Shown here piece by piece: positions 634 through 25,791 of a stretch of 36,652 bases of DNA (the stretch's first letter is position 1; the number at the start of each line of letters is the position of its first letter). The notes beneath the pieces are model-generated. The model had not been told where the DNA came from and did not search any database. It worked only from the letters and a program-made list of their open reading frames with translations. A program made the translations under genes and the position numbers. Source of the stretch: Halorubrum saccharovorum DSM 1137 (GTDB lineage: Archaea > Halobacteriota > Halobacteria > Halobacteriales > Haloferacaceae); the NCBI RefSeq assembly GCF_000337915.1, contig NZ_AOJE01000070.1, positions 149,109 to 185,760 on the forward strand, given 5' to 3'.

Positions 634-2514
634 TCACTCCACGGTGACGCTCTTCGCCAGATTTCGCGGCTTGTCGATCGGCCGCCCCTTCTCGTTGGCG
701 ACGTGATACGCGAACAGCTGCAGGTACACGTTCGCCACCAGCGGCTCGACGACGCCCACGTCGGGCACGTCGAACGACGCGTCGAGGGTGTCGTACTCGT
801 CGCCCGCGGAGACGCACCCCAACGCCGGCGCGCCCCGCGTCTGCGCTTCGGTGACGTTGTTCATCGTCTCGTCGGCCCGTGCCCCGTCAGTCAACACGGC
901 GATCACGGGCGTCTCTGGCGTCACCAGCGCTAACGGACCGTGTTTGAGCTCGCCGGCGGCGAACCCCTCCGCGTGATCGTAGGAGATCTCCTTGAGCTTC
1001 AACGCGCCCTCCAACGCAACGGGCACGCCGAGCGACCGGCCGACGAAGAAGAACGCCTCGCTGTCCTGAAACTCTCGGGCGGCCTCCCGCACCCGCTGCT
1101 CCTCGTCGAGGACCTGCTGGACCGCGCCCGGAAGCCCCTGCAGGTCCTCCAAGACTGAGCGCGCGTCGGCGGCCGCGAGCGCGCCGCGGTCACGCCCGAT
1201 CGCCACCCCGAGCATCGCGAGCGTCGCCACCTGCGAGGCGAACGTCTTGGTCGCGGCCACGCCGATCTCCGGGCCGGCGCGGATGAACGCGGTGCCGTCG
1301 ACCTCTCGCGTCACCGTGCTCCCCAGGGTGTTCGTCACGGCGAACGTCCGGGCGCCCGCGGCGTTCGCGCGCCGGATCGCCCCGAGCGTGTCGGCGGTCT
1401 CCCCGCTCTGGGTCACGGCGACCACCAGCGTCCGGTCGGGCGTCCGCCCCGCACCGAACTCGTACTCGCTGGCGATCTCGACGGTCGCGCGCACCCCCGC
1501 GAGATCCTCGAACAACTGCGCTGCGTACCGACCCGCGTAGTAGGAAGTCCCGCAGGCGACGATCCGGATCTCCTCTAAGTCCGCGAGAAAGCCCGGCGGG
1601 AACGACACGTCCAAATCCACGTCGCCGGCGTCCACGTCCAACCGCCCGGCGAGGGTCTGCCGGAGCGCGGTCGGCTGCTCGTGGATCTCCTTGCGCATGT
1701 AGTGCTCGTAGCCGCCCTTTTCGGCGGCGTCGGCCTCCCACGTCACCGTCTCGGTCTCGCGGTCGACCGCGTCGCCGTCAGCGTAGACCTCGACGCCGTC
1801 GGGCGACAGCGCCGCCACGTCGCCGTCCTCGAGATAGGTCACGTCGCGGGTGTGCTCTAAGAACGCGGTCACGTCGCTGGCGACGAACGACGCGTCCTCG
1901 CCGCGGCCCAACACCAGGGGGCTCCCGCGGCGCGCGACGACGATCCGGTCGTCGCCCTCGCGGACCGCACAGATCCCGTAGCTCCCCTCCAGTCGCCCCT
2001 CGACCCGCCGGACCGCGGCGAGGAGGTCCGCGCCCTCACCGCCCTCCTCGCCGCCGGAATCGGCGGCCAGTTCCTCCTCGATCAGGTGCGGGATGACCTC
2101 CGTGTCCGTGTCGCTGGTGAACTCGTGGTCCGCCAGCTCCGCTCTGAGCGCCTCGTAGTTCTCGACGATGCCGTTGTGGACGACCGCCACGTCGCCGACG
2201 CAGTCCGTGTGCGGGTGCGCGTTTGCGTCCGTCGGCGGTCCGTGCGTGCTCCAGCGCGTGTGGCCGACGCCGAGCGTCGCGTCGGGCACGTCCGGCACCG
2301 ACAGCGCGTCGACCTCTCCCGACCGCTTCGCGAGGGTGAGTCCGCTCTCCGGCCCCACGAGCGCGACGCCCGCGGAGTCGTACCCGCGGTACTCGAGGTT
2401 CTTGAGGCCGCGATGGACGATCTCGCCGACGCTGCCCGGCGTCTCCTCGTCTGTCGTCTCACCGCCGCCGTCAGCCGCGTGCAACTCGCCGATGTAGCCG
2501 ATGATCCCGCACAT
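634..2514 (-). CDS. glmS: Glutamine--fructose-6-phosphate aminotransferase (isomerising)
   Basis: GlmS makes glucosamine-6-phosphate from fructose-6-phosphate and glutamine, the first step to UDP-GlcNAc. The 626-residue protein starts MCGIIGYIGE, so Cys2 is the N-terminal nucleophile of the glutamine amidotransferase half. RGYDSAG and VGHTRWSTHG follow. Two SIS sugar-isomerase modules make up the rest, with CGTSYYAGR and TQSGETADT in the first and KLKEISYDHAEGF in the second. The C-terminus KPRNLAKSVTVE is typical. An acidic loop near residues 155-165 (DSGGEEGGEGAD) looks like a haloarchaeal insertion. The start lies 2 nt after the stop of the upstream nucleotidyltransferase gene, so the two are almost surely one transcript. 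Confidence 0.97.
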   Translation of the reverse strand: MCGIIGYIGELHAADGGGETTDEETPGSVGEIVHRGLKNLEYRGYDSAGVALVGPESGLTLAKRSGEVDALSVPDVPDATLGVGHTRWSTHGPPTDANAHPHTDCVGDVAVVHNGIVENYEALRAELADHEFTSDTDTEVIPHLIEEELAADSGGEEGGEGADLLAAVRRVEGRLEGSYGICAVREGDDRIVVARRGSPLVLGRGEDASFVASDVTAFLEHTRDVTYLEDGDVAALSPDGVEVYADGDAVDRETETVTWEADAAEKGGYEHYMRKEIHEQPTALRQTLAGRLDVDAGDVDLDVSFPPGFLADLEEIRIVACGTSYYAGRYAAQLFEDLAGVRATVEIASEYEFGAGRTPDRTLVVAVTQSGETADTLGAIRRANAAGARTFAVTNTLGSTVTREVDGTAFIRAGPEIGVAATKTFASQVATLAMLGVAIGRDRGALAAADARSVLEDLQGLPGAVQQVLDEEQRVREAAREFQDSEAFFFVGRSLGVPVALEGALKLKEISYDHAEGFAAGELKHGPLALVTPETPVIAVLTDGARADETMNNVTEAQTRGAPALGCVSAGDEYDTLDASFDVPDVGVVEPLVANVYLQLFAYHVANEKGRPIDKPRNLAKSVTVE

Positions 2515-2516
2515 GA

Positions 2517-3701
2517 TCAGCCCCTCCGGACGACGGCGTTCGGTTCGACGCGCCCGTCGACCACGACGCCCGCGTCGGCCCGCACGTCGTCGCCGACGAC
2601 GGCGCCGTCGGTGAGCGTCGCGCCGCCGCCGATCGACGCGTTGTCGCCGACGACGCCGCCGAGCGTCACGTCGCGGTGGACGGTGTCCCCGACCACGACC
2701 GTCGACACCCCTCCGGTGATCGTCGCGTTCGGCCCGATCTGCGCGTTCCCGGCGACGACGGCGTCGCGGACGACCGCCCCCGGCCCGATGACGGCGTCGG
2801 GGAACACGACGGTGTTCTCGACGACCGCGTTGGCCGCGATCGTGACGTTGCTACCGATCGCCGTCGCCCCGCTCAGGGTGGCGTTCGGCCCGACGCGAAC
2901 GTTTCCGGCGAGGACGACGTCGTCCGCGACGGAGACGGTGTCGCCGATACGCCGTCCCGTCGTCGGGGCTTCGCGGGCGTGGTCGGTGTCGTGGATCAGC
3001 GCCGCGTTCACCGTGAGAACGTCCCAGAGGTTCGACACGTCGAGCCACCGACCGTCGTAGCCCAAGCCGGTCACCTCGTCCCGCTCGGCCAGGTCGTTCA
3101 GCGTCGCGGTGATCGCCAGCTCCCCCGTCGCGTTCGTCGCCCGGATCGCGTCGAATATCGCGGGCGAGAAGCCGTAGACGCCGGCGTTGATGCGGTTGGT
3201 GTCGACCGGTCCCTCGGGCTTCTCGTCGATGTCGATCACGCGGTCGCCGTCCAGTCGGACGACGCCGTAGTCACGCGGGCGCTCCACGGCGGTGACGGTC
3301 ACCAGCGGCGCGTCGCCGTCGCTGAGGCGGTCGCGGACGGCCGACACCGCCTCGGCGTCGACGAGCCGGTCGCCGTTGAGAACCACGAAGGGGCCGTCGA
3401 CGACGGGTTCGGCCTGTAACACCGCGTGTCCCGTCCCCAGTTGCGTCGACTGCTCGACGTACTCGATCGTCACGTCCCAGTCGTCGCCGTCGCCGAAGTG
3501 GTTTCGGATCCGCTCCTGTTTGTATCCGACGACGAGGACGATCCGGTCGATGCCAGCCGCGACCACGGCCTCGACGACGTGTTCGAGCAGCGGGCGGTTC
3601 GCGACGGGTACCATCGGCTTCGGTCGCCGGTTCGTCAGCGGCTCCAGCCGGCGTCCCTCCCCCGCGGCGAGGACCACCGCGGTTCCTGACTCATCACGCA
3701 T
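2517..3701 (-). CDS. GlmU-type sugar-1-phosphate nucleotidyltransferase with left-handed beta-helix
   Basis: This 394-residue protein has an N-terminal nucleotidyltransferase domain (LAAGEGRRLEPLTNRRPKPM near residues 11-30, and a metal/nucleotide motif VLNGDRL). A C-terminal hexapeptide-repeat domain runs from about residue 255 to the end (repeats such as VGPNATL, IGSNVTI, IGPGAVV). It should join a sugar-1-phosphate to UTP or dTTP. Pairing with glmS in a two-gene operon points to UDP-GlcNAc synthesis, but a glucose-1-phosphate thymidylyltransferase role is possible. Its beta-helix lacks the GAGTNVANLRHD motif seen in the second GlmU-like protein at 11089, so acetyltransferase activity is doubtful. 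It has its own TATA-like box and is divergent from the response regulator. Confidence 0.9.
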   Translation of the reverse strand: MRDESGTAVVLAAGEGRRLEPLTNRRPKPMVPVANRPLLEHVVEAVVAAGIDRIVLVVGYKQERIRNHFGDGDDWDVTIEYVEQSTQLGTGHAVLQAEPVVDGPFVVLNGDRLVDAEAVSAVRDRLSDGDAPLVTVTAVERPRDYGVVRLDGDRVIDIDEKPEGPVDTNRINAGVYGFSPAIFDAIRATNATGELAITATLNDLAERDEVTGLGYDGRWLDVSNLWDVLTVNAALIHDTDHAREAPTTGRRIGDTVSVADDVVLAGNVRVGPNATLSGATAIGSNVTIAANAVVENTVVFPDAVIGPGAVVRDAVVAGNAQIGPNATITGGVSTVVVGDTVHRDVTLGGVVGDNASIGGGATLTDGAVVGDDVRADAGVVVDGRVEPNAVVRRG

Positions 3702-3798: not shown

Positions 3799-4179
3799 GT
3801 GACGAAATCGGCCGTCATCGCGGACGACGACGAGACGATCCGGTCGATCCTCGAGTACAAACTGTCGAACGCGGGATTCGAGGTCACCGCGTGCCACGAC
3901 GGCGAAGCGGGCCGCGAGGCGCTGAACGACCCCGACGCAGACCCGGACATCGTCGTCCTCGACGTGATGATGCCGCGGCTGAAGGGGACCCAACTGCTCC
4001 GGGCGGTGCGGCGCGGAGAGCTCGCGGTCGACCCCGACGTTCCCGTCGTCATGCTCACCTCGCGCGGCCAGGAGGCGGACGTGCTCGAGGGGCTCGAGTC
4101 CGGCGCGAACGAGTACCTCACGAAGCCGTTCAGCCCCAACGAGCTCCTCGTCCGGATCGAACGTCTGGTCGAGGAATGA
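3799..4179 (+). CDS. Receiver-only (CheY-like) response regulator
   Basis: The 126-residue protein is a single receiver domain with no output domain. Visible are the acidic pair D10/D11, the phospho-acceptor D55 in VVLDVMMPRLKG, T87 in MLTSRG and K109 in YLTKPF, so all key residues are present. It should be phosphorylated by a histidine kinase; the GAF kinase at 7429 is the only candidate in the locus. The start is GTG. Its stop overlaps the next start as ATGA, which indicates translational coupling to the HEAT protein and the GT2 synthase. By inference it switches polymer synthesis by binding one of those partners, since it has no DNA-binding domain. Confidence 0.93.
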   Translation: MTKSAVIADDDETIRSILEYKLSNAGFEVTACHDGEAGREALNDPDADPDIVVLDVMMPRLKGTQLLRAVRRGELAVDPDVPVVMLTSRGQEADVLEGLESGANEYLTKPFSPNELLVRIERLVEE

Positions 4180-5432
4180 GCGTGGACCCGTCGAGCGTCC
4201 CTCTCCCGCCGTTTTCTTCCCCGGTCCTCCTCTCGCTGCCGGGGCCGCTCTCTCGGGGCCTCGCGCTCGCCGCGGTCGTCCTCGGGTCGCTCCTGCTCGC
4301 GGTAGTGATCGTGACGGTCGGCTACTCCCTTCGTGCGGCCCGTAGCCGCCGACGGCGGACCCCGGCCCGCGAGACCCTTCGGTCAGAGCTGCTCGACCGG
4401 CTCTACGGGCGCGACGACCCGGCGTGGGACGAGTGGGTCGCCGGGCTCTCGGCGCTCGAACGCGACGAGCTCGAGTCGCTGCTCGACGTGTATCTGCGCG
4501 AGCTCGAGGGCGGGGACGCCGACCTGTTGGCCGAGCTGGGAACGGCGTTGGGAATCGACGAGCGCGCGCGCCGCGAGATCGCCGACGGCGGCTACTGGGA
4601 CCGGCTACACGCGCTCGTCTGGCTCGCCCTACTGCGCGATGCGCCGGACCGCGACCTCCTCGAGACGCGCTGCACCGACACGTCCCGCGAACGCGCTGCG
4701 GCTGCACGGGTGTTGTACGCCGCGGGGACGGACGACTGCGCGACGGCCGGCGTCGACCTGCTGTTGCGAGACGACCCCCGTTCCTTCTCGGTGTTCGGCG
4801 TCGACACGCTCTACCGCGTCGCGGAGCGAGACCCGACGCCGTTCTTCGAGCGGGTCGCCGCCGACTTCGACGAGTGGGAGCCGTCGCTCCAGCGACAGGC
4901 GCTGCTCGTGGTCCGCCACCTCACCACCGTCGTCGGCGGCGCCGACCGATCGTGGATCGTCGGAGCGCTGTCGAGTCCGGACCCGAGCGTGCGGTCGGCC
5001 GCGTGGCGGGCGCTGGGCGCGTACGGCTGGGACCGGGGCCTCCGTGACGGAGTCGACCTCTCGGCGATCGGAGAGGATCCCGTCCCCTCCGTCCGCGCGA
5101 ACGCGTACCGAGCGCTCGGCGCCTGGGGCGACGGCGAGGCGACCGCGGCGATCGAGTCCGCGGCGACGACGGACCCGGACGCCCGCGCGCAGGTCGCGGC
5201 CGCGGAGACGCTGGTCGCGAACCGAGGGACGGACGATCCCCCGTCCCGGCGAGTTCCGGGTAGCGAGTGGGTCGCCGGCCCCGAGGGCGTCGCCTCCGTG
5301 ACCGACGAGTCGGCTGAGACCGAGCCCTTCGGCGCCGCGTGGGCGTGGGCGACCGAACACGCACGGTTCGACCGGCTCGCGCGGGACATCTCCGCGGAGC
5401 GCGAGCGGCTCCACGAGGAGGTGCGCGGATGA
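4176..5432 (+). CDS. Membrane-anchored HEAT-repeat protein
   Basis: The 418-residue protein has one clear hydrophobic segment at about residues 26-52, followed by a basic stretch (RAARSRRRR) that should stay cytoplasmic. The rest is helical with HEAT-like repeats, clearest at SSPDPSVRSAAWRALGAYG and DPVPSVRANAYRALGAWG. HEAT solenoids are scaffolds for protein contacts, and no enzymatic motif is visible. It starts within the ATGA overlap with the response regulator and ends in an ATGA overlap with the synthase gene. By inference it links the receiver to the membrane synthase. I do not recognise a named family beyond HEAT. Confidence 0.85.
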   Translation: MSVDPSSVPLPPFSSPVLLSLPGPLSRGLALAAVVLGSLLLAVVIVTVGYSLRAARSRRRRTPARETLRSELLDRLYGRDDPAWDEWVAGLSALERDELESLLDVYLRELEGGDADLLAELGTALGIDERARREIADGGYWDRLHALVWLALLRDAPDRDLLETRCTDTSRERAAAARVLYAAGTDDCATAGVDLLLRDDPRSFSVFGVDTLYRVAERDPTPFFERVAADFDEWEPSLQRQALLVVRHLTTVVGGADRSWIVGALSSPDPSVRSAAWRALGAYGWDRGLRDGVDLSAIGEDPVPSVRANAYRALGAWGDGEATAAIESAATTDPDARAQVAAAETLVANRGTDDPPSRRVPGSEWVAGPEGVASVTDESAETEPFGAAWAWATEHARFDRLARDISAERERLHEEVRG

Positions 5433-7381
5433 CGACGCTCGGATCGGTCGCGACGGCGGTCATCGCCGGGTCGGGCTTCTTCATCGTCACGTACTACCTG
5501 CTGATCAACGCCGGCTACCTGCTGATCCACGCCCTCGCGCTGCTCCAGCTCCGCGACAACGTCCGCGAGTCGGCGTGGAAGCCGTCGTTCCGCGCGTTCG
5601 ACAGCCCGTTCTATCCGGGCGTCGCGATGGTCGTGCCGGCGTACAACGAGGCGACGACGATCGTCGAGAGCGTGCGGTCGATGCTGGCGCTCAACTACCC
5701 CGACCAGGAGATCGTCGTCGTCAACGACGGCTCCTCCGACGCCACCCTCGACCGGCTCGTCGAGGCGTTCGGGCTCCGCCCGGTCGACGCCGAGGTCCCG
5801 TACGACGTGCCTTCGGAGCCGATCCGCGGCGTGTACCGCTCGGCGATCCACGAGGACCTGCTGGTCGTCGACAAGGAGAACGGCGGGAAAAGCGACGCGC
5901 TCAACGCCGGCGTCTGGCTCACCGAACAGGAGCTGTTTTGCGCGGTCGACGCCGACACCCTGATCGACCGCGACGCGCTGTTGGACGTGGTCGCGCCGTT
6001 CCTGGAGGAGCCCTCGCGAACGGTCGCCAGCGGAGGCACCATCCGGGTCGCCAACGACTGCGTGGTCCAGGACGGGCAGGTCAAGGAGGTCAACCTCCCG
6101 AAGACGGGACTTCCCGGCGTGCAGGTGATGGAGTACCTGCGGGCGTTCTACTCCGGGCGGCTCGGCCTCGCCCGGCTCAAGGGGCTGATCCTCATCTCCG
6201 GCGCGTTCGGCGTGTTCCGGACCGACCGCGTCCGGGAGATCGGCGGGTACCGACACGACACGATCACCGAGGACTTCGACGTGGTCGTCCGGCTCCACGA
6301 ACACCTCTCTGACGCCGACATCGACTACCGGATCGAGTTCGTCCCGGAGCCGGTCGCGTGGACGGAGGTGCCCGACAACCTGCGGACGCTCGGCCGCCAG
6401 CGCCGCCGCTGGTACCGCGGGATGATAGAGACAGTGTTCGCCAGCCGTCGGATGTTCTTCCGGCGGCGGTACGGTCGGGTCGGGACGGTCGTCCTCCCGT
6501 TTTTCACCGCGGCCGAGGCGCTCGGTCCGCTCATCGAGGGGCTCGGATACGTGCTGCTCCCGATCGCGTGGTACCTGGGCATCCTGAACGTCGAGTTTTT
6601 CCTGGCGTTCCTGCTGTTGACCGTCGGGGTCGGGGTCTTCCTCTCGTGGTTCGGCGTGTTCAGCGAGGTGTGGAGCTACAACCGGTACGAGTCGCCGCGG
6701 GACGTGCTCCGCCTGCTCTGGTACGGCGTCCTGGAGAACTTCGGCTACCGCCAGTGGAAGACGATCGTCGCGTGGCACGGCCTGATCGAGTACCTGCGCG
6801 GCGACCAGTCGTGGGGGGTCATGGAGCGGCGCGGGTTCGGATCCGAGGGCGAGACTTCGGCGGCGGCCGCGGCGGCTCCGGTCGCGGGCGCAAGAGGAGA
6901 CGGCGCCGAGACCGTGGCCGACGACTCCGCCGCCACCAGCGGATTCGTGTGGATCGACTGGCTCTCCGAGGCGCCCGACACCGACGGGATTCGGTGGCTC
7001 GACCGAGTCGCGAGCGACGGGGCGCCCGGGCGGTTCGTTTCGGTCGCCGATCCGGCCGTCGGCGTTGGAGACGGCGGGTTCGTCTGGACCCGCGACTTCG
7101 CCGACGGCGTGGGTGACGGCGGGTTCGTCTGGATGACCGATCCCTCGGACGGCGCGGGGGACGGCGGCTTCGCGATCGCGTCCGACGGGGACGGCGTGCT
7201 TCGGCTCGTCGAGACGGCGGACTTCACCGACGGTCTCGGCGACGGCGGGTTCGTGTGGACGACCGATCCCGACCTCGGAGCCGGCGACGGCGGGTTCGTC
7301 TGGACCCGCGACTTCGCGGAGGGGACGGGCGACGGCGGGTTCGTGTGGCTCGTCGGTGCGGCCACGGGTGGCGACAACTGA
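5429..7381 (+). CDS. Processive family-2 glycosyltransferase (polysaccharide synthase) with GDGGF-repeat tail
   Basis: This 650-residue membrane synthase resembles the PgaC/BcsA/hyaluronan-synthase type. An N-terminal membrane segment (about 8-40) leads into a GT-A domain with VVPAYNE (68-74), VVNDGSSD (97-104), K/N-rich GGKSDALNAG, DAD at 174-176, TED at 280-282 and QRRRW at 324-328. DxD, TED and Q/RxxRW together mark processive polymer synthases. Further membrane helices lie at about 352-412. The last 180 residues are unusual: an Ala-rich linker, then six GDGGF units starting at 547, 562, 577, 604, 619 and 634, most reading GDGGFVW. The donor is not shown by sequence. UDP-GlcNAc is a reasonable guess from glmS/glmU/glmM nearby. 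The gene overlaps the HEAT gene by ATGA. Confidence 0.92.
   Translation: MTTLGSVATAVIAGSGFFIVTYYLLINAGYLLIHALALLQLRDNVRESAWKPSFRAFDSPFYPGVAMVVPAYNEATTIVESVRSMLALNYPDQEIVVVNDGSSDATLDRLVEAFGLRPVDAEVPYDVPSEPIRGVYRSAIHEDLLVVDKENGGKSDALNAGVWLTEQELFCAVDADTLIDRDALLDVVAPFLEEPSRTVASGGTIRVANDCVVQDGQVKEVNLPKTGLPGVQVMEYLRAFYSGRLGLARLKGLILISGAFGVFRTDRVREIGGYRHDTITEDFDVVVRLHEHLSDADIDYRIEFVPEPVAWTEVPDNLRTLGRQRRRWYRGMIETVFASRRMFFRRRYGRVGTVVLPFFTAAEALGPLIEGLGYVLLPIAWYLGILNVEFFLAFLLLTVGVGVFLSWFGVFSEVWSYNRYESPRDVLRLLWYGVLENFGYRQWKTIVAWHGLIEYLRGDQSWGVMERRGFGSEGETSAAAAAAPVAGARGDGAETVADDSAATSGFVWIDWLSEAPDTDGIRWLDRVASDGAPGRFVSVADPAVGVGDGGFVWTRDFADGVGDGGFVWMTDPSDGAGDGGFAIASDGDGVLRLVETADFTDGLGDGGFVWTTDPDLGAGDGGFVWTRDFAEGTGDGGFVWLVGAATGGDN
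7067..7351 (+). repeat. Coding repeats for GDGGFVW motifs in the synthase tail
   Basis: Six copies of a motif read as GDGGFVW (one is GDGGFAI) lie 15 residues apart in the first and last runs and 27 apart in the middle. The links alternate between TRDFADGV-like and TTDPDLGA-like sequences. The DNA is also repetitive (ggcgacggcgggttcgtctgg-like blocks), so the array probably grew by recent duplication. Confidence 0.9.
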
Positions 7382-7418
7382 GCCGCGACGACTGAGCCGC
7401 GACGACCGAGCCGCGACG
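7377..7418. repeat. 14-bp tandem triplication across a stop codon
   Basis: Three head-to-tail copies of actgagccgcgacg (the third with one change) start inside the last codons of the synthase gene. The TGA stop (7379-7381) lies in the first copy and a second TGA in the next copy. The repeats fill the gap to the convergent kinase gene. Confidence 0.85.
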
Positions 7419-7428
7419 GGCGCCGCGC

Positions 7429-8628
7429 TCAGTTGCCGTCCACGCCGTGATGGATCGGCTCGGCGGCGTTGACGTCCGTCACTTCGAACCGGGTCCCCGC
7501 CTCGGAACTCGTGACCGAGAGGTCCCATCCGTGGCCGGAGACCACGCGCTGGACGACCAGCAGCCCGAGGCCGAACGACTTCACGTTCTCCGCGTCGGCC
7601 TCGACGAGGGCGCTCTCGACTTCCGGCGGGAGTCCCGGCCCGTCGTCGGCGACCGCGAAGCCGCGTCCGTCCCCCGTCACCGTCACGGAGACGGTCGGCC
7701 CGCCGTGCTCGACGCTGTTGCGGAACAGGTTCTCGAAGAGCCGCCGGAGGCGCATCTCGTCGGCGACGACCGTCGTGTCGGGCGCGAGCTCAACCGTCAG
7801 CGTGGCGTTCCGGGTTTGGACGGTGTCCCACGCGTCGCGGACGAGCGGTTCGAGCGCGGTCTCGGTTCGCTCGCCGACGTCGGCCCCCTCCTTCGCCAGC
7901 AGCAGGCACTCGGCGATCATCGACTCCATGCGGTCCAGCGAGCTGCGGACGCGGCCGAGGAACTCCGCGACCTGCCCGGACACCGCGTCCTGCGCGAGCT
8001 CGGTGAAGCCGATCGCGCCCGCCAGCGGATTGCGGAGGTCGTGAGCGACGATGCCGGCGAACTCGTCGAGCCGATCGTTCTGGTCGCGGAGTTCGGCGTA
8101 GTGTTTCTGTCGTTCGAGCTCGGCGCCGACCCACTCCGCGAGCACCGAGACGAAGTCGCGCTCCCGGTCGGTGATCGGGTCGGACCTGGGCTCGTCGTCG
8201 GAGAAACACAGCGTCCCGTACGTCTCGCCGTCGACGTCGACTTCTGCGCCGACGTAACAGCGGAGGCCGGTCGCCTCGAGCGCGGCGTCGTCGCGGTACT
8301 CGCTGTCGACCGCGTCCGCGAACCCGATCGTCTCCCCCGTCCCGACGACGTGCCGACACCACGTCCCGTCGAGGTCGACGACGCCGCCCTGCGCGTACGG
8401 ACCGCCCTCGATGTTCGTCTCGACCACCTCGTACCGTCCCTCGCCGGTGTACGAGAGGACCCCGTTGTCGACCCCGAGGTACTCCCGGCCGACGCCGATC
8501 GCCCGCTGGATCCGCTCGTCGGTGGTCAGGTCGCGCGCCGTCAGCCGCAACAGGCTCTCGAACGGGTCGGGGCGGTCGGAGCGGTCGAGACGGTCGGGAC
8601 GGTCGGGGCGGTCGGAGGTGCCGGTCAT
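7429..8628 (-). CDS. GAF-domain sensor histidine kinase
   Basis: The 399-residue protein has a short low-complexity N-terminus (DRPDRPDRLDRSDRPD), a GAF sensor domain at about 30-175, a HisKA helix pair with phospho-acceptor H196 in IVAHDLRNPL, and an HATPase domain. The HATPase domain has an N-box with N300/N304 (ENLFRNSVEHGG), a G1 box (VADDGPGLP) and a G2 box (SFGLGLLV). It has no membrane helix and no receiver, so it is a soluble kinase needing a separate response regulator. The frame is open up to 8769, but the ATG at 8626-8628 gives the normal haloarchaeal GAF-kinase layout; an ATG 15 codons upstream is an alternative. It is convergent with the synthase and divergent from the lipoprotein. 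By inference it acts on the receiver at 3799. Confidence 0.92.
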   Translation of the reverse strand: MTGTSDRPDRPDRLDRSDRPDPFESLLRLTARDLTTDERIQRAIGVGREYLGVDNGVLSYTGEGRYEVVETNIEGGPYAQGGVVDLDGTWCRHVVGTGETIGFADAVDSEYRDDAALEATGLRCYVGAEVDVDGETYGTLCFSDDEPRSDPITDRERDFVSVLAEWVGAELERQKHYAELRDQNDRLDEFAGIVAHDLRNPLAGAIGFTELAQDAVSGQVAEFLGRVRSSLDRMESMIAECLLLAKEGADVGERTETALEPLVRDAWDTVQTRNATLTVELAPDTTVVADEMRLRRLFENLFRNSVEHGGPTVSVTVTGDGRGFAVADDGPGLPPEVESALVEADAENVKSFGLGLLVVQRVVSGHGWDLSVTSSEAGTRFEVTDVNAAEPIHHGVDGN

Positions 8629-8767
8629 GGTCGAGAACGTCTCCACCGTTCCTGCGGGGCCACCAAAACCCATCGCTGTGCCCGGGAGCGCCCGTGAGCG
8701 ACCCGGAGCGTCCGAACGCGTTCGTCGGCGGCGCTCGGCGACACCGGGCTCTCGCCGAGGCGTGGCC

Positions 8768-8777
8768 AACGTTATGA
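8768..8777 (+). promoter_or_regulatory. Possible TATA-like element for the lipoprotein gene
   Basis: The sequence aacgttatga lies about 28 nt before the GTG at 8800, within the 171-bp gap shared with the divergent kinase promoter. It is a weak match. Confidence 0.3.
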
Positions 8778-8799
8778 CCGTCCGGCGAGTGGATGGGTC

Positions 8800-11034
8800 G
8801 TGCGCAGACGCAGATTCCTCGGTCGCGTGGGCGTCGCCGGAGCGATCGGCACCGCCGGCTGCGGATCACGGGGCGACGGTGGTCCGGGAGATCCCTCCGA
8901 AGCGCCGACCCCGCGCCGCTTCCGAATCGGCGACGACGGGTTCGAGGTCGCAGTCGGCGACGGTCCGTTCACCGAACTCGGCGTCCGCGGCGTCAATCTG
9001 GGCATGGCCAAGCCCGGACGCTTCCCCGGCGAGGCGGCGATCACCCGCGCGGAGTACGACCGCTGGCTCGCGGCGATGGGCGAACTGCACGTCAACGTCG
9101 TCCGGGTGTACACCGTCCACCCGCCCGCGTTCTACCGGGCGCTCGCGGCGTACAACCGCTCGCACGCGGAGCCTATCTACGTCCTCCACGGCAACTGGAT
9201 CGGCGAGGAGACCCTCCGCGAGGCGGGCGACGCCACGTCGGTGTCGGCCGCGTTCGACCGCTCGTTTCGGCAGGTGATCGACGCCGTCCACGGCGCGACG
9301 ACGGTCGCTCCGGAGCCCGGCTACGCGAGCGGGACGTACGACGCCGACGTGAGCGACTACGCCCTGGGGTACGTCGTCGGCATCGAGTGGCCGCCGGCGG
9401 TGGTCAGGGAGACGAATAGGGTCGGCCAGCCGGACGGCTCCGAGGGCCAGTACCTCACCGCCCCGGACGCGCCCCCCTTCGAACGGTGGCTCGCGGCGCG
9501 ACTCGACGCCGGGGTCGCCTACGAGATCGACGAGTACGGCGCGCAGCGGCCGGCGGCGTTCACCAACTGGGTGACGACCGATCCCCTCTCTCACCCCTCC
9601 GAGCCGTTCGTCGACGAGGACGCGGTCAGCGTCGATCCCGACGCGGTCGCCGCGACCGACGCGTACGACGCCGGGACGTTCGCGGCGTACCACGTCTATC
9701 CGTACTACCCGCCCCTGCTGAACGAGACGCCCGAGTACGTCGACTACGTCGACCACCGCGGCGAGCCGAACAGCTACGCGGGCTACCTGAACGACCTCGT
9801 CGGCGCCACCGATCACCCGCTGCTCGTCGCGGAGTTCGGCGTACCCTCGTCGCGCGGGATCGCACAGAGAGACGTTCATGGTCGCGATCAGGGCCGTCAC
9901 ACGGAGGCCGAACAGGGCGAGATACTCGCCGCGATGTACGAGGACGTCCGCGAGGCCGACACCGCCGGCGGGGTCGTGTTCAGCTGGCACGACGAGTGGT
10001 TCAAGCGGACGTGGAACCTCGCCCCCTTCTCCGATCCCAACCGCCGCCCGTTCTGGTCGAACGTCCAGACGCCCGAACAGCGGTTCGGCCTTCTCTCGTT
10101 CGACCCGGCAGACGCCGTTCCGCTCGACGGGTCGCCCGACGCGTGGGAAGACGCCGCGGTTGCGACCCCCGAGAGCGACCCCACCCGAATCGGCGACGGG
10201 GGCGACGACGCCCGCGAGCTGACCGCGGTGCGGGTCACGAGCGACGCGGCGTACCTCTCCGTCCGGCTCGAATTCGCGGACCTCGGTGCGGGCGTCGACT
10301 GGAGCGAGACGAACTACCTCCTCGCGCTCGGGCTCACCGACCGCGGGGCGCGGGTCCTCCCGTACGACACGGCCGCGACCGCGCCCGCCGACTTCGTCGT
10401 CCGGCTCGGCGGCCCCGACGCCTCTCGCGTGACCGTCGACCCGCGCTACGACGCCTTCGCGTACGAGTACGGCGCGGCGGCCGGCCTCGACCTCGACCGG
10501 TACCGCGATCCCGATCCCGGCGTCTTCGCGCCGCTGCGGATGGTGATCAACCGCGGGTACACCGTCCCGGAGACGGGCGAGCGCGTCCCGTTCGAATCGG
10601 TCGAGACGGGGCGGCTCCGCTACGGCAACGGGAACCCTGACTCCCCGGCGTACGACTCGCTGGCGGACGTGCACGCCTCGCCGTCGACCGACGCGATCGA
10701 GGTCCGGCTCCCGTGGCTCCTGCTCAACGTCGCCGACCCGAGCCGCCGCCGGCGGCTCGGCGACTTCTGGAACGAGGGACTCGACGCGTACGAGACGTTC
10801 GAGGCGATCGAGGTCGCCGCGGCGTCGTACGTCCCGGCGGACGCCGAGGGAACGGCGACCGCGCTCGACGCCCCGACGAACCTCACGCACGCGGTCCCCG
10901 GCGTCGCGGACGGGGAACTGCGGTCGCTGTCGTTCGCCCCGCCGACGTGGGACCGACCGGCGTACGCGGAGCGGCTCAAGGAGTCGGGCCGTGCGGTTGG
11001 TGAGGTCTTCGAACGGTACACGGGGCGGGAGTGA
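8800..11034 (+). CDS. Tat-exported lipoprotein with glycoside-hydrolase-like (clan A) barrel
   Basis: The 744-residue protein starts from GTG with a twin-arginine signal (RRRRFLG) and a lipobox GTAGC, giving a lipid-anchored Cys21 on the outer face. Residues 58 to about 420 resemble a TIM-barrel glycosidase of clan GH-A: VRGVNLGMAKPG, ELHVNVVRVYTVHPPAFYRAL, IYVLHGNWIG. Candidate acid/base E196 lies in VVGIEWPP and candidate nucleophile E345 in LLVAEFGVPSSRG. FSWHDEWFKRTWN follows. The C-terminal 300 residues look like beta-sandwich carbohydrate-binding modules. Its place after the GT2 operon suggests it trims, remodels or releases the polymer outside the cell. The family number and substrate are not determined here, and the two glutamates are assigned by pattern only. 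Confidence 0.8.
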   Translation: MRRRRFLGRVGVAGAIGTAGCGSRGDGGPGDPSEAPTPRRFRIGDDGFEVAVGDGPFTELGVRGVNLGMAKPGRFPGEAAITRAEYDRWLAAMGELHVNVVRVYTVHPPAFYRALAAYNRSHAEPIYVLHGNWIGEETLREAGDATSVSAAFDRSFRQVIDAVHGATTVAPEPGYASGTYDADVSDYALGYVVGIEWPPAVVRETNRVGQPDGSEGQYLTAPDAPPFERWLAARLDAGVAYEIDEYGAQRPAAFTNWVTTDPLSHPSEPFVDEDAVSVDPDAVAATDAYDAGTFAAYHVYPYYPPLLNETPEYVDYVDHRGEPNSYAGYLNDLVGATDHPLLVAEFGVPSSRGIAQRDVHGRDQGRHTEAEQGEILAAMYEDVREADTAGGVVFSWHDEWFKRTWNLAPFSDPNRRPFWSNVQTPEQRFGLLSFDPADAVPLDGSPDAWEDAAVATPESDPTRIGDGGDDARELTAVRVTSDAAYLSVRLEFADLGAGVDWSETNYLLALGLTDRGARVLPYDTAATAPADFVVRLGGPDASRVTVDPRYDAFAYEYGAAAGLDLDRYRDPDPGVFAPLRMVINRGYTVPETGERVPFESVETGRLRYGNGNPDSPAYDSLADVHASPSTDAIEVRLPWLLLNVADPSRRRRLGDFWNEGLDAYETFEAIEVAAASYVPADAEGTATALDAPTNLTHAVPGVADGELRSLSFAPPTWDRPAYAERLKESGRAVGEVFERYTGRE

Positions 11035-11046
11035 AGAGTCGGGTCG

Positions 11047-11094
11047 GCGGGATCGCGCACGGCGCTATTCGCGGGATCGTGCCCGGCGCTACTC
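11047..11094. repeat. 24-bp tandem duplication at the 3' end of the second glmU-type gene
   Basis: Two adjacent copies beginning gcgggatcg and ending ggcgctaYtc, with three differences, lie at 11047-11070 and 11071-11094. They fill the gap between the convergent lipoprotein and glmU-type genes and cover the TAG stop at 11089-11091. Confidence 0.8.
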
Positions 11095-12318
11095 CGACGG
11101 CCGGTCGCGCGTGACCGCCTCTCCGAGCCCGGTCGTCTCGCCCGCGCCGAGCTTGACCCCGGCGTTCAGCGACGTGTTGATCCCGGTCTTCGCCCCGTCG
11201 CCGACGATCGCGCCGAGCTTCCGTCGCCCGGTGTCGACGCGGTCGCCCTTGACGGTCAGCCGGACGTTCTCGCCGTCGTGCCGGAGGTTGGCGACGTTCG
11301 TTCCGGCGCCGAAGTTCACGTCGCGGCCGAGCACCGAGTCGCCGACGTACGAGAGGTGGCCGACCGAGGCGTCGGCCATGAGCACGCTGTTTTTGATCTC
11401 CACCGAGTGGCCGACGTGCGCGTCCGGACCGATCACGGTCGACCCGCGAACGTACGCGTTCGGCCCCACGTCGGCGCCCTCGCGGATCAGCGCCGGCCCC
11501 TCGACGTAGGCGCCCGACCGGACCCTCGCCCCTTCCTCGACGGCGACCGGGCCGCGCAGGTGGACGCCCTCTTCGACCGTGCCGGCGACCGCCTCCGCCG
11601 TGTCCGCTGACTCGTCCCGCGCGTCGAGCTCCGCGAGTGCCAGCTCGTTGGCCTCCAGCAGCTCCCACGGGCGCCCGACGTCGAGCCACGTCCCCTCGTA
11701 AGGCGCCACGTCGATCCGGTGGCCGTCGTCGAGCAGGAGGTCGATCGTCGTCGTGATCTCGTATTCGCCGCGCTCGCTCTCGGGCGTTTGGTCGATGTAC
11801 TCGAACACCTCGGGCTCGAAGGCGTAGCAGCCGACGTTCGCGAGGTTCGTCGGCGGGTCCGCGGGCTTCTCGACGATCCCCGCGAGCGAGCCGTCCGCGG
11901 CGGTCGAGAGCACGCCGTACGCCCGCGGGTCCGCGACCTCGGTCGCCGCGACCGCCGTTCCCTCCGCCTCGGCGAGCGCGCGCGCGAGCGACGCGTCCAC
12001 GACCACGTCGCCGTTGAGCACCAGGAAGTCGTCGTCGACGACGGGCTCCGCCTGCGCGACCGCGTGGGCCGTCCCGAGCGCCTCCGCCTGCTCGACGTAG
12101 TGGACCGGATGCCCTCGGTACGACTCGCCGATCCGCTCGCGGATCGCCTCGCCACGGTAGCCGGTGACGACGACGAACTCGCCGACCACGTCGGCGGCGG
12201 TGTCGAACACCCGTTCGAGCAGCGAGCGATCGCCGACCGGGAGGAGCGGTTTCGGACGACGGTCCGTCAGCGGTCGCATGCGAGTCCCGCGGCCGGCCGC
12301 GAGCACGACTCCGTACAT
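11089..12318 (-). CDS. glmU: Bifunctional GlmU-like GlcN-1-P acetyltransferase / GlcNAc-1-P uridylyltransferase
   Basis: The 409-residue protein begins MYGVVLAAGRGTRMRPLTDR, with RPKPLLPVG next and VLNGDVVVD as the metal site. The C-terminal beta-helix contains EIKNSVLMADASVGHLSYVG, FGAGTNVANLRHDGENVR and GDGAKTGINTSLNAGVKLG. This pattern matches the archaeal bifunctional GlmU group, where the helix carries amino-sugar acetyltransferase activity, so this copy is the better GlmU of the two here. It sits between the polysaccharide locus and the origin, with glmM just beyond the orc gene. The frame stays open to 12537 only because of the CCCCA array, and the ATG at 12316-12318 is the family start. 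Confidence 0.92.
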   Translation of the reverse strand: MYGVVLAAGRGTRMRPLTDRRPKPLLPVGDRSLLERVFDTAADVVGEFVVVTGYRGEAIRERIGESYRGHPVHYVEQAEALGTAHAVAQAEPVVDDDFLVLNGDVVVDASLARALAEAEGTAVAATEVADPRAYGVLSTAADGSLAGIVEKPADPPTNLANVGCYAFEPEVFEYIDQTPESERGEYEITTTIDLLLDDGHRIDVAPYEGTWLDVGRPWELLEANELALAELDARDESADTAEAVAGTVEEGVHLRGPVAVEEGARVRSGAYVEGPALIREGADVGPNAYVRGSTVIGPDAHVGHSVEIKNSVLMADASVGHLSYVGDSVLGRDVNFGAGTNVANLRHDGENVRLTVKGDRVDTGRRKLGAIVGDGAKTGINTSLNAGVKLGAGETTGLGEAVTRDRPSE

Positions 12319-12492
12319 GTCCGGAGCCGACGGTGGGACGGGGCTTATCGGCTGCGGTCGGAGAATATCGCGGAGCGGGTGCGTGAGGCGGTCGGCGGAG
12401 AGCGCCGCACACAGTAGCGCGGATTTCGGAGTCGCGGACGGGTCTCCGTCCCGTACGTGTCCGCGGTCTGCTCGCGATCGAGAGCTCCGTCT

Positions 12493-12550
12493 CCCACACC
12501 ACCCCACCCCACCCCACACCACCCCACCCCACCCCACCCCACCCCACCCT
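12493..12550 (-). repeat. CCCCA/TGGGG pentanucleotide array, G-quadruplex-prone
   Basis: The plus strand is an almost pure run of accccacccc with two cacacc interruptions. The minus strand is therefore about ten runs of four guanines separated by single T or short TGT links, well beyond the minimum for a G-quadruplex. The right end (accccaccct) is also the G-string of the origin-box-like element at 12541-12569, so the array looks like an expansion of that G-string. Confidence 0.95.
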
Positions 12551-14373: not shown

Positions 14374-15696
14374 CTAGACCGCCTCACCGGCCCGCCCGAC
14401 GAGCCCCCGCGCCGTCTCGAACAGCTCGTCGGCGTCGCGCTCGTCGCGCGCCTCGGCGGTGATCCGCACCAGCGGCTCGGTGCCGCTCGCGCGGACGAGG
14501 AACCAGCCCGTCTCCGTCTCCACTCGGATCCCGTCGAGCGCCGACACGTCGTCGAACCGCTCGCGGGCGCGCTCCGCGACGCGCTCCACGACCGTCCCTT
14601 TCGATTCGGTCCGTATCGAGTCCCGGCGGATCGGGTACGTCGGAAGCTCGTCGACCATCGCGGCCAGCGATCCCTCCGCGCCGACCAGTCCGGCCAGCGT
14701 GCAGGCGGCGAGGGGGCCGTCGGGACAGCGCGTCTGCTCGGGCCAGATCCACGCGCCGCTCGGTTCGCCGCCGAAGACGACGTCCGGGTTCGCGGTCTCG
14801 GCGGCGACGTACGCGTCGCCGACCCGCGTGTACGTCACGTCCGCGCCGACCGCGGCGAGCGCGTCCGCGACGAGGAGGCTCGTGTCGACGGGGACCGCCA
14901 CGCGGTCGCCGTCTCCGGCCTCGCGCCGGGCGAACAGCGCGAGGAGCGCGTCGCCCGAGACGAACCGCCCGCGCTCGTCGATCGCCATCATGCGGTCCGC
15001 GTCGCCGTCGTGGACGACCCCGAGGTCCGCGCCGGTCGCCTCGACGAGCTCGCACGCCGTCTGACAGTTCTCGGCCGTGGGCTCGCTCGGACGCCCGGGG
15101 AACCGCCCGTCGCGCTGACCGTTGAGCGTCTCCACGTCGCAGCCGGCCGCGTGGAGCGCGTCGGCGGTGACTCGCCCGACGCCGTTCCCGAGATCGACGA
15201 CGACGGAGAGGTCGTCCGGGATCGCGACCGACTCGCGGAGCGCGCGCTCGTGGTGGTCTCGCGCTCCGCCCCCGTCACGGCGCTCGCCGAGCTCGTCCCA
15301 CGCCGCGAGGTCGAACGCCCCCTCGCGGACGATCTCGCCGATCCGATCGTTCGCGTCCTCACCGAACGCCCGGCCGTCGGCCGCCCAGAGCTTGATCCCG
15401 TTATCGGGCGCCGGGTTATGCGAGGCGGTGACGACGACGCCGGCGTCGGCCCCCTCCCGGACGACGCTCCGCGCGACGGTCGGGGTCGGCTGGACGCCCA
15501 CGTCGATCACGTCTCCGCCGCACTCGGTGACTCCGGCCGACACCGCCCGGCTCAGCGTGCGTCCGCTCTCCCGGGCGTCTCGCCCGAGGACGACCGTATC
15601 GGCGCCGTCGGTCGCCAGCGCGCGCCCGACGTGGAGCGCGAGTTCGGCCGTGATCTCCCCGCCGACTCGGCCTCTGACGCCGCTCGTTCCGAACAT
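14374..15696 (-). CDS. glmM: Phosphoglucosamine mutase (alpha-D-phosphohexomutase)
   Basis: The 440-residue enzyme converts glucosamine-6-phosphate to glucosamine-1-phosphate, the step between GlmS and GlmU. It starts MFGTSGVRGRVGGEIT. The phosphoserine is S92 in VVVTASHNPAPDNG, the metal loop is HDGDADRMMA, the sugar loop is GGEPSGAWIW and the phosphate loop is RASGTEPLVRI. All four phosphohexomutase signatures are present. GGEPSGA favours the GlmM/PMM-type archaeal group over glucose-specific mutases. A phosphomannomutase activity is possible, but glmS and two glmU-type genes nearby support GlmM. Confidence 0.92.
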   Translation of the reverse strand: MFGTSGVRGRVGGEITAELALHVGRALATDGADTVVLGRDARESGRTLSRAVSAGVTECGGDVIDVGVQPTPTVARSVVREGADAGVVVTASHNPAPDNGIKLWAADGRAFGEDANDRIGEIVREGAFDLAAWDELGERRDGGGARDHHERALRESVAIPDDLSVVVDLGNGVGRVTADALHAAGCDVETLNGQRDGRFPGRPSEPTAENCQTACELVEATGADLGVVHDGDADRMMAIDERGRFVSGDALLALFARREAGDGDRVAVPVDTSLLVADALAAVGADVTYTRVGDAYVAAETANPDVVFGGEPSGAWIWPEQTRCPDGPLAACTLAGLVGAEGSLAAMVDELPTYPIRRDSIRTESKGTVVERVAERARERFDDVSALDGIRVETETGWFLVRASGTEPLVRITAEARDERDADELFETARGLVGRAGEAV

Positions 15697-17646: not shown

Positions 17647-17750
17647 ACTCGAACGACTTGCGTCGGCGCCTTCACTGTTCCCCCGGAACCCGGCCCGATC
17701 GAGTGGTTGAAACCGAAGCGATAATCCCCCTTCTCCGGCGACACACGCGC

Positions 17751-18674
17751 ATGCAGAACAAGCGCGTGTTGGTCACGGGCGGGGCGGGCTTTATCGGCTC
17801 GAACCTCGCGAACCGCCTCGCGGCCGACAACGACGTGATCGCGGTCGACGACACTTATCTCGGGACTGCCGATAACCTCGATTCCGACGTGGAGTTCGTC
17901 GAGGCCTCCGTGCTCGACGACGACTACCCCGCCGACGTCGACGTCCTGTTTCATTTGGCCGCGCTCTCCTCGCGGAACATGCACGAGAACGACCCCCAGC
18001 GCGGCTGCCGCGTCAACGTCGAGGGGTTCGTCAACGCCGTCGAGCGCGCCCGGCAGGAGGGCTGCGAGACGGTCGTCTACGCCTCGACCTCCTCGATCTA
18101 CGGGAGCCGCACCGAGCCCTCGCCCGTCGACATGGAGGTGGAGGCGCGCACGGCCTACGAGGCCTCGAAGCTCTCGCGCGAGCGCTACGCCGAGTACTAC
18201 GCCAACCACCACGGGATGAACGTGGCGGGACTCCGCTTCTTCTCCGTGTACCAGGGCTTCGCCGGCAACGAGGAGCACAAAGGCGAGTACGCGAACACGG
18301 TCGCGCAGTTCGCGGACGCGATCGCCTCGGGCGAAGCGCCCGAGCTGTTCGGCGACGGCACCCAGACCCGCGACTTCACCCACGTCTCCGACGTGGCCCG
18401 CGCCTGCGAGCTCGCCGCCGACCACGAGCTCACGGGCGTCTACAACGTCGGAACCGAAGAAGCGTACTCGTTCAACGAGATGGTCGAGCTGATCAACGAC
18501 GCGCTCGGCACCGACGTCGATCCGGAGTACATCGAGTGCCCCTTCGACGACTACGTCCACGACACCATGGCCGACTACTCGGCGTTCCACGAGGCGACCG
18601 GCTGGGTGCCCCAAATCGACTTCGAGGAGGGCGTCCGACTCGTCTGTGAACCTTACCTCGACGGCGAGCGCTGA
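17751..18674 (+). CDS. NAD-dependent sugar-nucleotide epimerase/dehydratase (GalE-like)
   Basis: The 307-residue extended short-chain dehydrogenase has the NAD motif VTGGAGFIGSNLA near its start, DVLFHLAALSS, a catalytic serine in YASTSSIYGS and the YEASK dyad (Tyr and Lys). The typical C-terminal DFTHVSDVARA and VYNVGTEEAYSF follow. It should epimerise or dehydrate a UDP- or dTDP-sugar. UDP-glucose or UDP-uronate 4-epimerase is likeliest given the UDP-sugar dehydrogenase downstream. The ATG at 17751 is preceded by a weak TATA-like gataatc about 27 nt upstream. It converges on the CysD-like gene. Confidence 0.9.
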   Translation: MQNKRVLVTGGAGFIGSNLANRLAADNDVIAVDDTYLGTADNLDSDVEFVEASVLDDDYPADVDVLFHLAALSSRNMHENDPQRGCRVNVEGFVNAVERARQEGCETVVYASTSSIYGSRTEPSPVDMEVEARTAYEASKLSRERYAEYYANHHGMNVAGLRFFSVYQGFAGNEEHKGEYANTVAQFADAIASGEAPELFGDGTQTRDFTHVSDVARACELAADHELTGVYNVGTEEAYSFNEMVELINDALGTDVDPEYIECPFDDYVHDTMADYSAFHEATGWVPQIDFEEGVRLVCEPYLDGER

Positions 18675-25088: not shown

Positions 25089-25185
25089 ACCGGAGTAAGC
25101 GCCCGCCGACTCAAAGAACGTTGCGCGTTCCCGGACTCGAGACGGCTCCGGACGATACTTACCCTCGGACCGCCGAGGCGACGAT

Positions 25186-25791
25186 ATGTCCGAGGGACCG
25201 GGATCCGAGACGGCGACCGCGCGTCGATCGGAGTCGGACGACCGCGACGGTCGCGACGACCGCGACGGCCGCGACGGTCGCGACGACCGCGACGGCCGCG
25301 ACGGCCGCGTCGCCGGCGTCTCCCGTCGGGTCGGCTGGCTCCTCGTCGTCGCCCTCCTCGCGGTCCCGATGGCCGTGATCCCCGGCGGCGACCTCACGGT
25401 CGTGAGCCTCTGGGGGTTCCTCAACACGGCGGGGCCCGGCCTCGGCGTCGGCGGCTACCCGGTGTGGGCGTACTTCCTCGAACAGCCGCGCCCGTTCGGA
25501 GCGCTCCCGGCGTCGATCCGAGCGTGGCCGCTCGCGATCGGGTTTTACCTCCTCGCGACGGCCAGCGCGACGGCGGGGGTCGCGCTCGGTCGAGAGGACC
25601 GGCGCGTCACCGGCGGCCTGCTCGCGCTCGCCGCGGCGGCGAGCCTGTGGGTCTCCGTCGGCGTCGCGACCCGATTCGGCGTCGGGACCACGTCCGGATG
25701 GCTCGCCGTGCTCCCGGTCGGCGCGCTCGCGACGCTCGCGGTCGCCGTCGGCGTCTACGGGCGCGACCTCCGCGGAATCGTCGAGGCGTGA
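25186..25791 (+). CDS. Haloarchaeal integral membrane protein (TIGR04206-like)
   Basis: The 201-residue protein has an Asp/Arg/Gly-rich N-terminus (about 18-42) then about four hydrophobic segments, including WLLVVALLAVPMAVIPGGDL and SLWGFLN. The PGGDLTVVSLWGFLN stretch resembles the haloarchaeal family TIGR04206, but I cannot confirm that without a search. The function is unknown. It is divergent from the dehydrogenase, and a TATA-like gatactta lies about 30 nt upstream of the ATG. Confidence 0.75.
   Translation: MSEGPGSETATARRSESDDRDGRDDRDGRDGRDDRDGRDGRVAGVSRRVGWLLVVALLAVPMAVIPGGDLTVVSLWGFLNTAGPGLGVGGYPVWAYFLEQPRPFGALPASIRAWPLAIGFYLLATASATAGVALGREDRRVTGGLLALAAAASLWVSVGVATRFGVGTTSGWLAVLPVGALATLAVAVGVYGRDLRGIVEA
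25238..25308 (+). repeat. DRDGRD-coding short tandem repeats
   Basis: Units of cgcgacggYcgcgacgaY encode alternating DRDGRD and DGR strings in the N-terminus of the membrane protein at 25186. The 9- and 15-bp periods indicate slippage in frame. Confidence 0.85.

Follow-up and report, generated by a model that had tools for sequence, protein, structure and literature searches.

The stretch of DNA analyzed here, 36,652 nucleotides from Halorubrum saccharovorum DSM 1137 (hereafter, the window), comes from contig C70 of a haloarchaeal genome of 3.42 Mb (G000); among the named genomes in our scans, Halorubrum lipolyticum is its closest relative. Five genes in the window form a candidate module for exopolysaccharide synthesis. 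Three of them, encoding a response regulator (RR), a HEAT-repeat protein (HEAT) and a family 2 glycosyltransferase (GT2), follow one another on one strand and are called the trio below. The other two encode a histidine kinase (HK) and a lipoprotein (LP). The features are as follows.

3799..4179, + strand: RR, CheY-like receiver-only response regulator, 126 amino acids (Pfam Response_reg, 2.3e-26)
4176..5432, + strand: HEAT, membrane-anchored HEAT-repeat alpha-solenoid, 418 amino acids (HEAT_2, 1.7e-11)
5429..7381, + strand: GT2, processive membrane glycosyltransferase, 650 amino acids (PF13641, Glyco_tranf_2_3, 8e-18)
7067..7351, + strand: C-terminal tail of GT2, cytoplasmic, in which GDGGFVW recurs five times without mismatch at a period of about 15 residues
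7429..8628, - strand: HK, soluble GAF-HisKA-HATPase_c histidine kinase, 399 amino acids (Pfam domains)
8800..11034, + strand: LP, Tat lipoprotein, predicted clan GH-A glycosidase or transglycosylase with a C-terminal beta domain, 744 amino acids (predicted fold)

RR and HEAT share an ATGA overlap at 4176-4179, as do HEAT and GT2 at 5429-5432, and both overlaps are exact. An earlier reading made from the sequence alone (the sequence-only reading) had noted these junctions and concluded that the three proteins are made together; both points hold, the trio being a co-translated unit that is conserved across loci. HK is encoded on the opposite strand, tail to tail with the trio. The G+C content at the third codon position is 0.89-0.93 in the RR, HEAT, GT2, HK and LP frames, which indicates that these five frames are coding and that the long antisense frames are noncoding.

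When 292 Halobacteria genomes were searched with the HEAT protein, 66 genomes had a match; among the matches listed, the likely orthologues (E below about 1e-20) come from roughly 45-50 genomes. Stretches of up to 20 kb were then inspected around 40 further haloarchaeal loci. The RR, HEAT and GT2 genes are adjacent on one strand in 39 of them, even where HEAT identity is as low as 31-35%, and at most joints the neighboring genes either overlap or are separated by no more than a few tens of bases. Conservation of this neighborhood is far beyond chance, and the trio thereby passes the check for conservation as a unit that the sequence-only reading had set. HK and LP are the next commonest neighbors, in variable positions; in loci of the Haloarculaceae type, HK comes next after GT2 in the same orientation, and LP and RR point away from each other. 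As a small negative control, another processive-type haloarchaeal GT2 (L164) has no HEAT or receiver gene within 1.5 kb.

The same genes occur together in bacteria. A GT2 alignment was scanned against 84,980 species genomes, and the counts given here refer to the best 80 relatives, about 70 of which are bacterial. The bacterial relatives are full-length, are 38-50% identical and rank after the haloarchaeal ones. They are found in Pseudomonadota, Actinomycetota, Gemmatimonadota, Bacteroidota, Bacillota, Bdellovibrionota, Myxococcota, Chloroflexota and others, and the GT2 tree carries 21 phylum labels, bacterial and archaeal. In this quick tree, a single clade of haloarchaeal GT2s is separated from the bacterial sequences (SH-aLRT 100). 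Other archaeal classes yielded distant GT2 matches only, except for one Thermoplasmatota bin (L094). A HEAT gene is present in 79 of the 80 loci, directly upstream of GT2 in 78 of these; most were found with the haloarchaeal profile, and 16 more with a bacterial HEAT profile (E below 1e-30). At the sole locus without HEAT (L138), the sequence begins at the end of a contig; in L134, GT2 is preceded at a distance of 7 kb by an RR-HEAT pair. In 67 of the 80 loci, a receiver is encoded within 3.5 kb upstream. No natural RR-HEAT or HEAT-GT2 gene fusions were seen among them.

Additional genes in the bacterial operons make these a better guide to function than the haloarchaeal loci. In Bacteroidota and rhizobia, a TPR protein with a YaiO-type outer-membrane barrel is encoded between RR and HEAT; as is expected for polymer export, such a protein would provide a passage for the chain through the outer membrane. 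LP relatives are encoded upstream of RR in Clostridium caldaquaticum, Alkalibacterium and one Gemmatimonadota bin, and downstream of GT2 in one actinobacterial (Actinomycetota) bin. Operons of Neomarinimicrobiota and Cloacimonadota encode Hpt, GGDEF and receiver proteins, including GGDEF-REC. The sequence-only reading had viewed the locus as an archaeal counterpart of bacterial systems, which fails because many bacterial phyla have this HEAT-GT2 operon themselves, usually as RR-HEAT-GT2; bacterial GT2 relatives with HEAT and receiver genes also rule out an archaeal-specific system. Its further proposal, that a phosphorylated receiver acts through HEAT instead of cyclic di-GMP (c-di-GMP), is too strong, since some bacterial operons also encode GGDEF domains. 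No c-di-GMP synthesis or receptor domain was found among the open reading frames of the window that were scanned.

GT2 has the properties of a processive synthase. Its DxD (174-176), TED (280-282) and QRRRW (324-328) motifs, on which the sequence-only reading had based this assignment, show little or no variation in an alignment of 25 relatives, and hydropathic segments are located at both ends, with several in the C-terminal part. The best NCBIfam match is PgaC_IcaA (TIGR03937), at 133.3 bits against a cut-off of 422.3, which leaves GT2 outside that family; profile matches include BcsA, hyaluronan synthase and chondroitin synthase. GT2 is likewise not a BcsA member: a Pfam scan found no PilZ domain in it, and the CelA model scores 48.7 bits against 699. 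The GDGGFVW repeats are unique to the GT2 tail within the genome. Most Halorubrum copies have this tail, which is absent from other genera except for a degenerate DGFxW form in L051, and it is possibly a multivalent binding site. In L063 the GT2 gene is split, through decay or an assembly error.

By hydropathy, HEAT has a single N-terminal membrane helix (about residues 30-48) followed by an Arg-rich stretch, and a C-terminal helix. This order of helix and Arg-rich residues places the solenoid in the cytoplasm according to the positive-inside rule. PF13646/PF02985 score above cut-off, and the AlphaFold model (pLDDT 90) has helices across residues 84-350. Its best fits among solved structures are alphaRep and HEAT proteins (Z 16), a resemblance that for helical repeats may reflect arrangement only.

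RR consists of PF00072 alone, as is characteristic of CheY-like (REC-only) regulators, and it retains the phosphorylation residues: D10, D55 and K109 are present in 39 of 39 aligned sequences, and D11 in 38. HK comprises GAF, HisKA and HATPase_c domains and lacks both a membrane segment and a receiver (Pfam, hydropathy); its H-box reads HDLRNP. The sequence-only reading had observed that a regulator without an output domain lies near a kinase without a receiver, and had assigned this kinase to the trio. Both observations are upheld, and the putative pairing of HK with RR is based on gene linkage: HK adjoins the trio in most haloarchaeal loci, and the related kinase gene of Haloarculaceae directly follows GT2. 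In Haloarcula halophila the annotation lists in one row a response regulator, a HEAT protein, a family 2 glycosyltransferase and a GAF sensor kinase, the kinase gene sharing the orientation of GT2 and following it after 24 bp.

In Natrialbaceae loci, an extra gene of 330-400 amino acids abuts or overlaps RR on its upstream side (L216:4422-5438, L065:8065-9060, L066:8047-9126, L068:7878-9101, L070:8105-9118). Its start resembles the paired helices of HisKA but lacks the His, and the sequence after it is receiver-like; a weak receiver match was obtained in L064. The product is perhaps a pseudo-kinase input.

LP begins with MRRRRFLGRVGVAGAIGTAGC, which contains a twin-arginine start and the lipobox TAGC, with G20 and C21 invariant. 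It has no Pfam or NCBIfam match, and a profile search against solved structures was also empty. The AlphaFold model (pLDDT 78.6) consists of a (beta/alpha)8 barrel and a C-terminal beta domain. This model fits GH157 with Z 26.5 (rmsd 2.9, 306 aligned), GH2 glucuronidases with Z about 23-24, and yeast Gas2, a beta-1,3-glucanosyltransferase, with Z 22.2; identity to these matches is 11-15%, and GH157, GH2 and GH72 were compared as candidate families. E196 (GIEW) and E345 (AEFG) are invariant in 24 sequences, and in our own reading of the model they would be the clan GH-A glutamates on strands 4 and 7. A barrel with two such residues makes retaining hydrolysis or transglycosylation the likely, though only predicted, activity. 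The Tat lipoprotein with a clan-A-like barrel described in the sequence-only reading is therefore recovered, the fold as a prediction. In Halorubrum LUM.57 (L048, also L076), LP is split across two frames, again through decay or an assembly error.

The five genes are flanked by genes that had not entered the sequence-only reading.

634..2514, - strand: GlmS, glucosamine-6-phosphate synthase (TIGR01135, 710 bits)
2517..3701, - strand: GlmU1, divergent Arch_GlmU-like sugar-1-phosphate nucleotidyl/acetyltransferase, left cassette border (TIGR03992, 272 bits, cut-off 292)
11089..12537, - strand: GlmU2, bifunctional GlmU, right cassette border (TIGR03992, 525 bits)
14374..15696, - strand: GlmM, phosphoglucosamine mutase (TIGR03990, 474.6 bits, above the cut-off of 439)

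With GlmS and GlmU1 on the left, divergent from the trio, and GlmU2 and GlmM to the right of LP, genes for the supply of UDP-N-acetylglucosamine (UDP-GlcNAc) bracket the block. Three haloarchaeal arrangements link glucosamine-supply genes to the module: GlmS-GlmU1 divergent from RR, GlmS-GlmU1 beside LP, and GT2-GlmU-GlmS. The last is found on a Halosolutus plasmid, where GlmU-GlmS lies directly behind GT2 on one strand. In Natronorubrum texcoconense, GlmU-GlmS is located 3-6 kb upstream of the module. An Orc1/Cdc6 gene lies between GlmU2 and GlmM, and a (CCCAC)11 repeat at 12493-12549 occupies the start of the GlmU2 frame, so that the true GlmU2 start may be further in. At the window edge (1-91) is a perfect 20-bp tandem repeat, GTCCGACCTCAAATACCTCC, in 4.6 copies.

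Within the genus, LP is present in 16 of 16 trio-bearing genomes and in 0 of 19 trio-free genomes, counting genomes in which LP lies elsewhere, beside HK and GlmS; the sequence-only reading had rightly placed the lipoprotein with the trio. When gain and loss were mapped on a chorismate-synthase tree of these 35 genomes, the state of the module changes at least five times on supported branches and 10 times on the best tree, and LP changes each time. The five supported independent contrasts all agree (sign test p 0.06, the lowest value attainable with five pairs). GlmU2 comes about 50-190 bases after GlmU1 in four trio-free genomes; two more have a spacing of about 550-860 bases, and G226 has other DNA there. 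From these empty sites we conclude that RR-HEAT-GT2-HK-LP has been acquired or lost as a single cassette in the interval between GlmU1 and GlmU2.

On balance, we lean toward the view that the cassette is a synthase-dependent exopolysaccharide module under two-component control, in which HEAT is the control subunit of GT2 and RR is the switch. On the cytoplasmic side of the membrane, GT2 would polymerize a sugar nucleotide, most likely UDP-GlcNAc, and it would push the chain outward. The single-helix anchor and cytoplasmic solenoid of HEAT would allow it to dock on GT2. HK would phosphorylate RR, and phosphorylated RR could then bind the HEAT solenoid and thereby set GT2 activity, upward or downward. 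Outside the cell, lipid-anchored LP may trim, release or remodel the chain. More tentatively, RR-HEAT-GT2 may define a cross-domain class of exopolysaccharide synthases in which HEAT is the universal control subunit and the receiver, joined in some bacteria by GGDEF, is the switch, so that control would be phosphorylation-driven as opposed to PilZ-driven.

The main rival explanation is that HEAT serves GT2 constitutively, as a subunit for assembly or stability, that the receiver acts elsewhere, for instance by targeting a transcription factor or by serving as a phosphate sink, and that the gene overlaps only match amounts. Its best support is the tighter linkage of HEAT to GT2 than of RR (79/80 versus 67/80), and a barrel gene separates the receiver from HEAT in Proteobacteria and Bacteroidota. 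Receiver-only proteins are also about 40% of archaeal response regulators, and the targets of most are not known (PMC5847659). Nevertheless, we judge this explanation unlikely, as the haloarchaeal RR-HEAT junctions are as tight as the HEAT-GT2 junctions and no conserved DNA-binding partner lies beside the trio. A quite different possibility is that GT2 is non-processive and glycosylates a lipid or the S-layer protein, LP being an unrelated secreted scavenging glycosidase. Haloarchaea do use GT2 enzymes for N-glycans, but the QxxRW and TED motifs and the multiple C-terminal membrane segments are those of processive enzymes; LP shares the gains and losses of the trio and is also linked to it in Clostridium, Alkalibacterium, Gemmatimonadota and Actinomycetota; and the bacterial operons contain an outer-membrane barrel gene. 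This alternative therefore seems highly improbable.

Several observations weigh against two-component control of an amino-sugar synthase as we propose it. Two haloarchaeal loci have RR-HEAT-GT2 in one place and HK-LP elsewhere. In G170 and G015 (L172, L173), HK-LP-GlmS-GlmU1 lie together on a contig other than that of the trio; in G015, a large PAS/GAF hybrid kinase follows GT2 and belongs to the trio alone. Thirteen of the 80 GT2 loci have no nearby receiver, which means that RR need not be the only input, although several of these are cut-off contigs. GT2 scores far under the PgaC cut-off. GlmS and GlmU occur in 7-8 trio-free genomes of the genus, which means that GlmS does not strictly mark the module, and both are absent near the bacterial loci. 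Finally, the nearest folds of LP include beta-1,3-glucan enzymes (GH157, Gas2), which would suit a glucan instead.

The last point bears on the identity of the polymer, which could be a beta-glucan or a mixed polymer of glucuronic acid and GlcNAc instead of poly-GlcNAc. Consistent with this are the matches of the LP fold to GH157 laminarinase, GH2 glucuronidases and Gas2, as well as genes in the window for a UDP-glucose dehydrogenase (22338-25427, - strand, split by a LAGLIDADG-domain intein) and a sugar epimerase (17658-18674). However, a substrate is not deducible from fold matches, PgaC_IcaA is the best characterized match of GT2, and GlmS, GlmU and GlmM flank the cassette. We thus consider a glucan or mixed polymer somewhat unlikely, and an amino-sugar polymer about twice as likely as these two taken together, because UDP-GlcNAc genes flank the block and follow GT2 in another family. 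The dehydrogenase intein is apparently also present in the G147 relative (L041) and not in the G152 relative (L040).

The module is a real and widespread variant of synthase-dependent exopolysaccharide systems, and its control module is apparently undescribed. No description of a set combining HEAT, a glycosyltransferase and a response regulator was found in open-access full texts, subscription papers being outside this scope; the sequence-only reading had likewise known of none. Rubrivivax EmbRS was ruled out as a described match, because EmbR is a LuxR-type DNA-binding regulator, and a 'lipocone' paper was ruled out, because it mentions HEAT for beta-catenin only. RR is a receiver-only protein with a near-constant set of partners, and its target is therefore directly testable. 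The clean presence or absence of five genes within one genus provides natural strains with and without the module, and LP appears to represent a new family within clan GH-A that awaits characterization. If HEAT is the switch, a branch of bacterial and archaeal biofilm polymers would be under phosphorylation control through a scaffold, a route unlike the textbook PilZ/c-di-GMP one.

Among known systems, those for poly-N-acetylglucosamine (PgaABCD, IcaADBC) resemble the module in their processive GT2 and in UDP-GlcNAc supply, whose genes adjoin here, and Gram-negative relatives of the module have a TPR and outer-membrane barrel protein, as in PgaA. They differ in control, which in the module would be by RR and HEAT, and in the low PgaC_IcaA score of GT2. 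No deacetylase of the PgaB/IcaB type was found among the window open reading frames scanned, a search that did not extend to PgaD-like small proteins. Cellulose synthase (BcsAB, controlled by c-di-GMP through PilZ) shares a DxD/TED/QxxRW GT2, a dedicated control part and an associated glycosidase (BcsZ), whereas the module has a HEAT solenoid and a receiver in place of PilZ, and its LP has a predicted clan GH-A fold. Enterobacterial glycan secretion of the NfrA/NfrB and YaiO-linked types combines GT2 with a TPR/outer-membrane barrel protein, as do the bacterial relatives of the module (YaiO domain); it is not known to have a HEAT or receiver partner, and the archaeal version of the module operates without an outer membrane. 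The mixed-linkage beta-glucan synthase BgsA of Sinorhizobium is also a GT2 without a predictable PilZ domain, but it is activated by c-di-GMP through its own domain, and the part of its description consulted mentions no HEAT or receiver (PMC5567048). In the Methanobacteriaceae (MTH_548), a receiver is fused directly to a PF13641 glycosyltransferase; these proteins are a single chain with no HEAT described, unlike the module, and they are a precedent in archaea for receiver control of GT2 (PMC5847659).

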